From Candidatus Zemynaea palustris (GTDB lineage Bacteria; Vulcanimicrobiota; Vulcanimicrobiia; Vulcanimicrobiales; Vulcanimicrobiaceae), in assembly GCA_003134695.1 (NCBI GenBank), contig PLCB01000006.1:99039-163038 (forward strand): 64,000 nucleotides of DNA, written 5' to 3'. This document shows, piece by piece, positions 8,256 to 11,181 of this stretch. A program made the position numbers and the translations under genes. Every line of letters starts with the position of its first letter. The first letter of the stretch is position 1. Under the pieces are notes generated by a model. That model searched no databases, had not been told where the DNA came from, and was given only the letters and a program-made list of their open reading frames with translations.

Positions 8256-8951
8256 CTAAGGCCCGCCGGAGAACGCGGCGAGGGTCGCGGTCGCGATCAC
8301 GCGACCTTCCTTAACCAGGCTCAAGGAGCGCGGCGCGGCTGAGGTGCGCACGAACAGCGTCGACGTCTGCAGCCCCGCTTGCAGCGGGCCGGCGTCGAAA
8401 TCGCCGGCGCTCGAGCGCGCGACCACGTGGCAGCCTGCGATGTCGGCGTCCACGATGACGTAGTACCACGAGCGATCGCGCGCGTAGAGGACCTTCGCCG
8501 TCGGAGCGCCGGCGACGGCCGGCGTGAAGCTCGCGTGGAGAAAATGCGACGCCGCGACCGCTCTGAGCGCGTCTTCGTCGCGAGTCGAAACGTGGGATCC
8601 GATCGAACGGTCCAGTGCGACGCCGCCGCCGAGGCCGACAACCAGCGCGATCGATGCCGCGAGTGCAAATCGCATCGGCACGCTCGGCCGCGGCCTGAAC
8701 GCGATCACCTTCGCGGGCGCGAGCGCCGCCGCCGAAGCGGCGATGCGGCGACCTAAGGCGGCCGGTGGTTCGACGCGCGGCAGCGTCGCATCGTCGAGCG
8801 CGGCGACCGCTGCCTCGGCGCGCCCGACCTCGCGAGTGCAACGTGCGCACCGCGCGAGATGCCGGTCGATGCCGAGCCGCTCTTCGGGCTCGAGCGCGCC
8901 GAGGGCGTAGAGTTCGGCGTATTCGCCGACGTGATCGCCGAAGGTCATCAT
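8256..8951 (-). CDS. anti-sigma factor, RskA-like with zinc finger
   Basis: A 231-residue single-pass membrane anti-sigma factor that should hold the neighbouring ECF sigma factor inactive. The cytoplasmic N-terminal zinc-binding anti-sigma domain has His in GDHVGEYAELYALGAL and the HLARCARC motif (about residues 31-38). One membrane helix follows (about 92-112, FALAASIALVVGLGGGVAL), then a periplasmic RskA-type beta domain ending SLSLVKEGRVIATATL. Its ATG overlaps the sigma stop by 4 bp, the usual arrangement for such pairs. Release probably needs regulated proteolysis of the membrane part (known for RskA; not visible here). Confidence 0.85.
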   Translation of the reverse strand: MMTFGDHVGEYAELYALGALEPEERLGIDRHLARCARCTREVGRAEAAVAALDDATLPRVEPPAALGRRIAASAAALAPAKVIAFRPRPSVPMRFALAASIALVVGLGGGVALDRSIGSHVSTRDEDALRAVAASHFLHASFTPAVAGAPTAKVLYARDRSWYYVIVDADIAGCHVVARSSAGDFDAGPLQAGLQTSTLFVRTSAAPRSLSLVKEGRVIATATLAAFSGGP

Positions 8952-9496
8952 ACGCTTACCTCCTGGCGGGGCAACATCGTCTGCAAGCGGCGCAGCCCGA
9001 GCGAAATCCGGCTCTTGATCGTCCCGAGTGGGACGCCGAGGCGTGCGGAGATCTCGCGGTGGGAGAGCTGACGGGCGTACGCAAGCGCCAATGCCGAGCG
9101 CTGATCGGGCGGCAGCACGGCGAGCGCGCGCTTGAGGCGTTCGCTCTCCACCACGTCGCGGATCTCGAATTCGTAGGCCGTCGTCTCCGACGCGGCGACC
9201 TGCGTCTCGATCTTGCGATGACGCGTCGCGTCGCGGAGGCGCGTGACCGCTTCGTTACGGATGCAGACCATCAAGTACGCTCGCAAGGAGCCCCGCCCGC
9301 GCTGATATGAATCCGGCCGCTGCCAGAGGCGCAACAGGACGTCGTGAACGCAATCCTGCGCATCGTCGTCGTCGCCGAGCACGTGGCGCGCGACCGAGAA
9401 GAGCGCCGTTCCGTAGGCTTCATACACGGCTTCGAGACCCTCATTGCGCCGTGCGATGAAGTCCCCGACGAGCGCCTCGTCTTCGTGCTCACCCAA
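8948..9496 (-). CDS. ECF RNA polymerase sigma factor (SigK-like)
   Basis: A 182-residue ECF sigma factor with only regions 2 and 4. Region 2: DDDDAQDCVHDVLLRLWQR and the GSLRAYLMVCIRNEAV helix. Region 4: LPPDQRSALALAYARQLSHREISARLGVPLGTIKSRI, the DNA-reading helix-turn-helix. It is translationally coupled to the RskA-like anti-sigma and overlaps the metallophosphoesterase by 8 bp. The two identical promoter-like motifs upstream of the operon (10776-10834) suggest autoregulation, but that is inference. Confidence 0.9.
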   Translation of the reverse strand: MGEHEDEALVGDFIARRNEGLEAVYEAYGTALFSVARHVLGDDDDAQDCVHDVLLRLWQRPDSYQRGRGSLRAYLMVCIRNEAVTRLRDATRHRKIETQVAASETTAYEFEIRDVVESERLKRALAVLPPDQRSALALAYARQLSHREISARLGVPLGTIKSRISLGLRRLQTMLPRQEVSV

Positions 9497-10367
9497 GCGC
9501 CCGATCGGTCACTTTCGTGCCGCCGCCAGTCGCGAGTTCGACGCTCCGATAACCGAGGAAGCTCAGGAGTTTGTCGTCGGGAACTTTGAGCGGGCCCGGT
9601 TTGGCCGCCGTCCCCGGCGCCGGCTGCGGATACGCCGTCGCCGCCGCCGTCGCGAAGCGGATGTTCCCCTCGGTGTGCTGGATAATTTGATGGATGTGGC
9701 CGTTCAGAACGGTCACCGCGTCGAAGCGACGCAGCAGCGCGAGCACCTTCGTTCCGTCTTCGGTCGTCCAGCCCCACTCCGGGTAGAGCGCGTAAAGCGG
9801 GACGTGTCCGAAGACGACGATCGGCGTCGACTTCTTTTGTGCCGCCAGATCCTTTTCCACAAAGTCGATCTGCTCTTGACCCAACTTGCCGTCGATCTCG
9901 AAGTTGAAGACGTTGACCAGCGATACGAAGTGGATGCCGCCCTGGTCGAACGAGAACCAGCCGCTCGGCGCGTCCGTGCGTGCGAAGTTAGCGAAGAAAT
10001 TCTTCGACGAACCGATGACGTCGTGCTCGCCCGGCAGGACGACGAGCGGCGCGCGCAGGGTTCCGAGGAGTTGCTTCGCGTCGTCGAACTCCGTCGTTTT
10101 CGAAAGGTGCGTGACGTCGCCGGTGTGCACGACGAAGGCCGGCTGATTCGGCAGCGCGTTAATGTCCTCGATCGTTTTGCGGAGCGTCCCGGCGACGTCG
10201 GGATTCTCGGGGCGCGTGAAACCGATGTGGCTGTCGCTAATCTGCACGAACGAAAACGGACTTGCGGCCTCGGCAGGTTGTGCGCTCAGCAAGCCCGTCG
10301 CCGAAAGCGACCAGGCGATTCCCGCTCCGGTCCAGCCGACGTGTTCGATGAAATCCTTGCGTCTCAT
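9489..10367 (-). CDS. exported metallophosphoesterase (calcineurin-like)
   Basis: A 292-residue metallophosphoesterase. Metal-binding motifs in order: ISDSHIG, HTGDVTH, LPGEHD, GHVPL and LNGHIHQ, the complete set for a two-metal phosphoesterase. The N terminus MRRKDFIEH followed by a hydrophobic stretch and AEA looks like a Tat-type signal with an R-K variant, suggesting a periplasmic enzyme. It lies between the cupredoxin and the ECF sigma gene in one operon, a common context for this type of cupredoxin/phosphoesterase pair. The substrate is unknown. Confidence 0.85.
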   Translation of the reverse strand: MRRKDFIEHVGWTGAGIAWSLSATGLLSAQPAEAASPFSFVQISDSHIGFTRPENPDVAGTLRKTIEDINALPNQPAFVVHTGDVTHLSKTTEFDDAKQLLGTLRAPLVVLPGEHDVIGSSKNFFANFARTDAPSGWFSFDQGGIHFVSLVNVFNFEIDGKLGQEQIDFVEKDLAAQKKSTPIVVFGHVPLYALYPEWGWTTEDGTKVLALLRRFDAVTVLNGHIHQIIQHTEGNIRFATAAATAYPQPAPGTAAKPGPLKVPDDKLLSFLGYRSVELATGGGTKVTDRALG

Positions 10368-10382
10368 GAGGATGCTCCTTCT

Positions 10383-10742
10383 TTACTGCGCCGGGGCGGG
10401 CGTAACAACGACGACTGCTTTCATGTACGGATGCAGCTCGCAGAAATACTTATAGGTTCCGGGCTTGCTGTAGACGTGTTGCCACGTGTTGCTCGTGTCG
10501 AGTCCTTCCGAATCGTAGGACTGATCGGTTGCCGTCACGGTGTGCGGCTCGTCGTCGTCGTTGACGAAGGTGACGCGGTCGCCGACGTGGATCTTGGCCG
10601 GCGTCGGATTGAACTTGAAGTCCTTGATGTGAATCGTCAGCACCGCCGGCAAGAGCGCCGGCGGGGTTGCGGCGCGCGCGCCGGCGCCGTGGAGCGCGAA
10701 GGTGAGCGCGACGAGCGCGAGACTCGGGATGAGCTTGTTCAC
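10383..10742 (-). CDS. secreted cupredoxin (plastocyanin-like)
   Basis: A 119-residue protein with a signal peptide (to about residue 24, ARA) and a cupredoxin fold. The type-1 copper ligands are visible: His in DEPHTVTA, then Cys, His and Met in FCELHPYMK. It probably carries electrons or buffers copper in the periplasm. It starts with GTG 10742 after AGAGGA and is the first gene of the ECF operon. The promoter motif at 10776-10804 lies directly upstream. Confidence 0.85.
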   Translation of the reverse strand: MNKLIPSLALVALTFALHGAGARAATPPALLPAVLTIHIKDFKFNPTPAKIHVGDRVTFVNDDDEPHTVTATDQSYDSEGLDTSNTWQHVYSKPGTYKYFCELHPYMKAVVVVTPAPAQ

Positions 10743-10775: not shown

Positions 10776-10804
10776 ACTACGCCGCAGAGCGTGCCGTTGG
10801 ATGA
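10776..10804 (-). promoter_or_regulatory. putative ECF promoter for cupredoxin-sigma operon
   Basis: On the minus strand TCATCC (10804-10799) is followed after 17 bases by CGTAGT (10781-10776), about 34 bases before the cupredoxin start. The same two elements with the same spacing face the other way at 10806-10834. The two -35 boxes form the near-palindrome GGATGACTCATCC. Confidence 0.65.
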
Positions 10805-10805
10805 C

Positions 10806-10834
10806 TCATCCCACCGGGCAGGCTCGTGCGTAGT
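10806..10834 (+). promoter_or_regulatory. putative ECF promoter for small secreted protein
   Basis: TCATCC (10806-10811), 17 bases, CGTAGT (10829-10834). It is the mirror image of the promoter of the sigma operon. The gene at 10888 would start about 50 bases after the expected transcription start. Two exact copies in divergent orientation are unlikely by chance and point to shared control, most simply by the ECF sigma encoded here. Confidence 0.65.
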
Positions 10835-10887: not shown

Positions 10888-11181
10888 ATGAAACCAATCC
10901 TCACCCTCGTTGCCCTGGCGATCGCGCTCGGCGCACCGCTCGCGACACTTGCCGACGAACGCAACATGCCGTCGAACGCCCCGGCGACGACGGCGATCTC
11001 CAGCAACGCGGCTCCGGCCGTTACGAAGGACAGCGACACGATCAATCTCGTCGCCGTGAAGAGCGTGAAGCGCTCCCCGCTCTCGGACTTCGTGATGCCC
11101 AAGTACCTCACGATCCAGCAAGAGAACGACGCGCATCAGCGCGAGTACGAAGCCCTGTTCGGTCTCAACCACACGCCGTAA
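10888..11181 (+). CDS. small secreted protein, likely ECF target
   Basis: A 97-residue protein with a clear signal peptide (MKPILTLVALAIALGAPLATLA). The mature part is hydrophilic, with a Ser/Ala/Pro-rich start and a charged C-terminal helix (YLTIQQENDAHQREYEALFG). GAAGGAA precedes the ATG. I recognise no domain. The value here is context: it is divergent from the cupredoxin-sigma operon and shares its promoter motif. Confidence 0.65.
   Translation: MKPILTLVALAIALGAPLATLADERNMPSNAPATTAISSNAAPAVTKDSDTINLVAVKSVKRSPLSDFVMPKYLTIQQENDAHQREYEALFGLNHTP

Follow-up and report, generated by a model that had tools for sequence, protein, structure and literature searches.

The window, a 64,000-nucleotide stretch of a Candidatus Zemynaea palustris contig, carries a four-gene operon on the minus strand and, divergent from it, a small gene on the plus strand. 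The first operon gene encodes a secreted cupredoxin whose PDB matches are amicyanin/plastocyanin-like chains and whose GTG start codon at 10742 has GAGAGGACATCA before it. After a gap of 15 bp comes the gene for a calcineurin-like metallophosphoesterase (MPE), a protein with a twin-arginine-like signal (RRKDF, recognised by eye) at its N-terminus and with PDB relatives of the cyclic-nucleotide phosphodiesterase type, such as Rv0805. The third protein contains Sigma70_r2 (residues 25-92) and Sigma70_r4_2 (119-171) and no other domains, which makes it an ECF (group IV) sigma factor; its nearest PDB chain is R. sphaeroides RpoE (2q1z, 1e-17), followed by others that include SigK (4nqw). The fourth is a zinc-finger anti-sigma factor that scored above the cut-off for zf-HC2 (2.4e-5) and just below it for RskA_N (8.7e-6; 26.3 bits against a cut-off of 27), with no other RskA domain reported. 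Pfam identified no regulator gene in the operon besides those for the sigma and anti-sigma factors. The small secreted protein on the other strand had no match in Pfam or NCBIfam. Its conserved C-terminal part reads PKYLTxQQxNDAxQRxYEAxF, and a search of 99 family genomes returned one convincing homologue, at the same locus in genome G031.

Features of the locus, with positions given in the window. Promoters are predicted.

8256-8951, minus strand: zinc-finger anti-sigma factor, 231 aa, one hydrophobic stretch; 4-bp overlap with the sigma gene
8948-9496, minus strand: ECF sigma factor, 182 aa (Sigma70_r2 2.5e-18, Sigma70_r4_2 8.6e-15); start overlaps the MPE gene by 8 bp
9489-10367, minus strand: calcineurin-like MPE, 292 aa (Pfam Metallophos 6.8e-15)
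10383-10742, minus strand: secreted cupredoxin, 119 aa, GTG start, first gene of the operon (Pfam Cupredoxin_1 6.2e-11, Copper-bind 8.1e-8)
10776-10804, minus strand: promoter P- of the cupredoxin-MPE-sigma-anti-sigma operon; -35 TCATCC 10804-10799, 17-bp spacer, -10 CGTAGT 10781-10776
10807-10799, minus strand: extended -35 box of P-, GAGTCATCC
10799-10811, no strand: palindromic centre GGATGACTCATCC; the two 9-bp extended -35 boxes have GASTC (10803-10807) in common
10803-10811, plus strand: extended -35 box of P+, GACTCATCC
10806-10834, plus strand: promoter P+ of the small secreted protein; -35 TCATCC 10806-10811, 17-bp spacer, -10 CGTAGT 10829-10834
10888-11181, plus strand: small secreted protein, 97 aa, signal-peptide-like N-terminus; ATG at 10888 after AAGAAGGAACAACCG

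A two-box motif upstream of related sigma operons

The original prediction for this locus held that TCATCC-N17-CGTAGT occurs once on each strand, with the same boxes and spacing, and that it is a likely motif of an ECF sigma factor. Scanning the window for TCATCC-N15-19-CGTAGT returned two matches only, 10806-10834 (+) and 10776-10804 (-), which are mirror images of each other and both have an N17 spacer. Shuffled windows gave an expectation of 0.03 matches, and no shuffle contained two.

The motif also proved to be a property of related sigma operons. Relatives were fetched with the sigma protein, which found some match in 92 of 98 genomes; 40 loci were read, 38 of them usable. TCATCC-N16/17-CGT was present on the coding strand, no more than 200 bp upstream of the operon's first gene, at 23 of the 38 loci, against 0.1 expected from its rate in the remainder of this DNA; the exact upstream motif was absent from 15. 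The sequences flanking these sites revealed an extended -35 box, GASTCATCC, and a -10 box, GCGTW(C)T, 17 of 24 sites having A at the second position and 18 of 24 having C or G immediately before TCATCC. Gathering the sites by their core pattern predetermines the core itself, but it predetermines neither the enrichment nor the flanking bases. When a matrix built without the window was run over every window position on both strands, P- ranked first (21.8 bits) and P+ second (19.5 bits), with the next position at 14.9. The same two-box motif thus lies upstream of the sigma factor's own operon in relatives. We infer, with good support from these comparisons, that P+ and P- are ECF-type promoters and that the operon is autoregulated.

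Two loci showed other arrangements. In the window's own genome, a sigma paralogue with 47% identity and an anti-sigma gene of its own (L063, G000:C32:39901-40404) lacks the TCATCC-CGT motif upstream. At L055 (G039:C146) the order looks rearranged, the anti-sigma match preceding the sigma gene, and a TCATCC promoter lies upstream of that anti-sigma match.

Geometry of the predicted promoter pair

The near-palindrome described at the centre of the pair was found at 10799-10811. It is a 13-bp dyad, GGATGACTCATCC, perfect except for its central base and situated between divergent genes that start at 10742 (-) and 10888 (+). The same centre, ATGACTCAT, is the yeast GCN4/AP-1 site, a resemblance that we regard as coincidence. 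The cores of P+ and P- abut or overlap, with -35 boxes at 10799-10804 and 10806-10811. Thus, the claim that the -35 boxes are separated by 1 base is correct for the 6-bp boxes but not for the extended ones: because the extended box is GASTCATCC and GASTC is symmetric except for its central base, the two extended boxes overlap by 5 bp and are fused.

Transcription would be expected to start about 7 nt past each -10 box, which from the geometry puts roughly 70 bp between the two start points. A polymerase usually covers about -55 to +20, so this distance leaves no room for two of them, and it is plausible on geometric grounds that polymerases exclude one another from P+ and P-. We also looked for a sigma-70-type promoter near P+ and P- and found none.

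Conservation of the paired promoters

Apart from the window's genome, only G031 had a small-protein gene that could be recognised, in the same neighbourhood, so that the divergent pair with this gene is known from two genomes. Gene order in G031 is as in the window (proline dehydrogenase, small gene, cupredoxin, MPE, sigma, anti-sigma), and the two top matrix positions at its locus form a divergent pair directed toward the same two genes, with 24.2 and 18.5 bits and the next position at 10.5. These promoters read GAGTCATCC-N15-GCGTA and GAGTCATCC-N16-GCATA. The boxes of the two genomes were compared by position, since the intergenic gap differs; in G031 the TCATCC boxes lie 26 bp apart. Paired promoters are therefore retained in G031, and the fusion is not.

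A variant of the layout appeared in genomes G059 (L056) and G043 (L057), where cupredoxin-MPE and sigma-anti-sigma are separate divergent units. Their common upstream DNA contains GGATTGGTGGGCCATCC and GGATGAGTCGGCCAATCC, pairs of ATCC-type -35 boxes separated by 5 and 6 bp; at N16 on either side stands GCATATG, GCATATC or GCATTTC (GGCATWT-type -10 boxes). The two loci, which were read by eye, count as weaker evidence but are consistent with each other, and they suggest the same layout with a variant motif. The sigma factors of G059 and G043 have NREMLKAYL where most others have RGSLRAFL; a further sigma factor (L058) has residues of the G059/G043 type and a GCGT -10 box, making the link between residues and -10 box imperfect.

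A secreted-protein-like small reading frame also lies divergent from a cupredoxin-MPE-sigma-anti-sigma operon in genome G007 (L070:2680-3111, minus strand, oriented coordinates), with no detectable similarity to the 97-aa protein of the window. Within the genus, the one further genome searched, which is 74% complete, had no close sigma orthologue.

These comparisons bear on the original prediction. The assignment of one promoter to the cupredoxin-phosphoesterase-sigma-anti-sigma operon and the other to the small secreted protein gained support, as both recur at the orthologous G031 pair. Lack of conservation of the boxes in related genomes had been named as grounds for rejecting the idea; the boxes turned out to be conserved, the spacing between them not. 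Competition between the promoters remains plausible from their geometry, but the 1-bp arrangement behind it is unconserved (26 bp in G031, 5-6 bp in G059 and G043), and since a gap of 26 bp implies weak exclusion, competition is not conserved either. Paired divergent promoters look selected, and the 1-bp gap would be one variant of them.

The predicted regulon

A wider regulon, for which a genome scan had been proposed, found no backing. In the 2.7 Mb assembly, GASTCATCC-N16-GCGTW had exactly two perfect matches, P+ and P-, and TCATCC-N15-19-CGTAGT had one match beyond the window pair, with an N19 spacer. The relaxed pattern TCATCC-N16/17-CGTW matched 18 times, against 4 in a reversed control, and nearly all of these matches are intragenic (one of the 18, L105, was left unassigned to a gene). 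One-mismatch extended matches in this genome (G000) and in G031 also fell inside reading frames except at the two divergent pairs. We therefore rejected a wider regulon in the organism's own genome. Because the extended motif is exact only at P+ and P-, the predicted regulon is this one divergon; most economically, it would be confined to a single locus and comprise the four operon genes and the small secreted protein.

Besides P+ and P-, two relaxed matches lie outside reading frames near a start, at C14:2893 and C45:174214, both without GAS before TCATCC. The first (L104, G000:C14:2893-2919) has the form TCATCC-N17-CGTT, and six bases separate it from the start of a gene for a 191-aa membrane-like protein. 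This site is a weak candidate for a further, possibly leaderless, target of the sigma factor, as is the intergenic site at C45:174214.

The genome holds 11 matches to the operon's sigma factor, so another ECF sigma factor could read P+ and P-. There is fair support for the one in the operon being the cognate sigma factor.

Fused centres in other genomes

In the window's class, a search of 117 genomes found a fused centre with one -10 box nowhere besides the window. Searching 84,980 species genomes for a fused centre that has a -10 box on either side, ACGC-N15/16-GGATGASTCATCC-N15/16-GCGT, returned two records (L122, L123), a number near chance level by our own rough estimate of around one. Both records, L122:6160-6210 and L123:660-710, come from the same orthologous intergenic region of Brevundimonas-type Alphaproteobacteria, between divergent genes that are FAD-dependent oxidase-like and CFA-synthase-like (we named them by reading the sequences and by reference to the published RpoE core regulon). 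A third genome retains the palindrome, and in a fourth one half is altered (AGATGACTCATCC); with a mean column identity of 85%, the species are too close for conservation among them to be more than weak evidence.

The core ECF11 regulon includes CFA synthase and a flavin oxidase (PMC5507510), which makes an ECF promoter likely at the Brevundimonas-type divergon. ECF genes were found in these genomes, none of them with the motif upstream. Like the window, this divergon has the GGATGASTCATCC centre, GCGT -10 boxes on both sides and divergent genes; unlike the window, it has unrelated target genes and belongs to a distant phylum. A fused palindromic -35 may be a recurrent design of ECF divergons that arose independently in the window lineage and in Alphaproteobacteria, offering one sigma-4 site in two orientations and coupling the outputs through common initiation events, an idea that we consider possible but somewhat unlikely.

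Comparison with known systems

Two sigma-anti-sigma systems resemble the window pair. The window's anti-sigma factor has a sub-threshold resemblance to RskA_N at its N-terminus, which points to pairs of the SigK-RskA type (ECF18/ECF19; PMC7509140), and the sigma factor matches both the NCBIfam SigK model and PDB 4nqw, although the family-model matches of the pair fall below curated cut-offs. For the sigma factor, PRK09646 (SigK) scored 89.9 bits against a cut-off of 226, and PRK12519 scored higher, 110.9 against 222, so the sigma factor falls short of the SigK model. The -35 box of M. tuberculosis SigK is CCATCC and its -10 box is CCGAAT, the latter differing from the CGTAGT of the window. M. 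tuberculosis SigK has two conserved cysteines, 133 and 183 (PMC7509140). Unlike SigK, the window system has no Mpt70/83-like target.

The mapped promoters of ECF11, the group of the RpoE-ChrR systems (R. sphaeroides, P. syringae PSPTO_1043, S. oneidensis RpoE2), have the form TGATCC-N16-CGTA (PMC5507510, PMC4336711), which differs from the motif TCATCC-N16/17-CGTA in a single -35 base. As in ECF11, the sigma gene is autoregulated (here by prediction), and the nearest PDB relative of the window's sigma factor is R. sphaeroides RpoE itself. ChrR is cupin-bearing and cytoplasmic, whereas the window's anti-sigma factor is of the zf-HC2/RskA_N type with a hydrophobic stretch; the ECF11 core of photolyase and CFA genes likewise contrasts with a predicted regulon of one locus. 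Two features spoke against ECF11 membership: at E <= 0.001 the anti-sigma factor had zf-HC2 and RskA_N only, with no cupin-like ChrR domain, and the promoters of 23 loci have TCATCC with N16 or N17, one fixed base off the published consensus. As the sigma factor did not pass the SigK model and its anti-sigma partner was not recognised as ChrR, we file it as an ECF sigma factor with an ATCC-type -35 box, without a group number.

A comparable layout is described for divergent ECF-controlled loci such as PhyR/NepR-EcfG, in which promoters of one sigma factor transcribe both its own operon and a partner gene divergent from it (PMC8103513). This is the arrangement predicted for the window, except that the passage in question describes two transcription units and no common palindromic -35 box. 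Our literature searches found nothing on point for overlapping divergent ECF promoters, and no work joining an ECF sigma factor, a cupredoxin and a metallophosphoesterase. Warman and colleagues are said to have described bidirectional promoters that arise from -10 symmetry, with a second transcript that is largely incidental. Such promoters resemble the window pair in having a symmetric sequence of which one element is used in two directions; the symmetry lies in the -10 box there and in the -35 box here, and in the window both directions lead to genes.

Discussion

We conclude, with a probability of about 0.77, that P+ and P- are real promoters read by the operon's ECF sigma factor or a close paralogue, and that they form a single-locus autoregulatory divergon serving one polymerase at a time. 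Once released by the anti-sigma factor, the sigma factor would bring RNA polymerase to the common palindromic centre, to be bound in either orientation. One orientation would lead to transcription of the cupredoxin, phosphoesterase, sigma and anti-sigma genes, and hence to positive and negative feedback; the other would lead to transcription of the small secreted protein gene. With five base pairs common to the extended -35 boxes and start points about 70 bp apart, only one polymerase could sit at the centre, so the two outputs would be co-induced yet draw on common initiation events.

A stronger form of this reading makes the common centre a functional switch under selection, by which the sigma operon and the small protein would be transcribed in a fixed ratio or in mutually exclusive bursts. 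We consider it unlikely: the 5-bp overlap of the extended boxes, the close divergent pairs in G043 and G059 (5-6 bp) and the fused centres with both -10 boxes in Alphaproteobacteria all speak for it, but the gap differs between the few known cases and reaches 26 bp in G031.

It is improbable that only the operon-side site works, with the plus-strand site a mirror copy that arose by chance or is decaying, and with some other mode of expression for the small gene. Such a reading would accommodate the rarity of the small gene (one homologue in 99 genomes), the weaker -10 box (GCATA) of its G031 promoter and the operon-side promoter standing alone in most relatives. However, both window sites are full matches with equal spacing, the plus-strand site at 19.5 bits is far above the next window position, and G031 retains a divergent site toward the orthologous gene even though the spacing between its promoters has changed.

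A 13-bp dyad between divergent genes has the classic look of an operator, and a similar palindrome recurs in Brevundimonas-type divergons, but a site for a dimeric repressor or activator (a copper or redox regulator, for example) between ordinary promoters, with the ECF -35 likeness secondary, is very unlikely, as an operator needs both halves whereas in relatives TCATCC is single, in one orientation and at a fixed 16-17 bp from GCGTW, the G031 halves lie 26 bp apart, each with its own -10 box, and the operon has no regulator gene apart from sigma and anti-sigma.

The autoregulatory divergon thus remains our preferred reading, and it predicts one sigma factor, one locus and two outputs. The motif TCATCC-N16/17-GCGTW, with its extended -35 box GASTCATCC, is here defined from sequence alone; the ECF group to which it belongs occurs widely in the lineage and is uncharacterised in the literature we searched. 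Relatives provide a partial natural series of -35 gaps (1, 5, 6 and 26 bp), and the common -35 centre would offer a compact natural test of whether polymerase competition for one landing site links two divergent genes.
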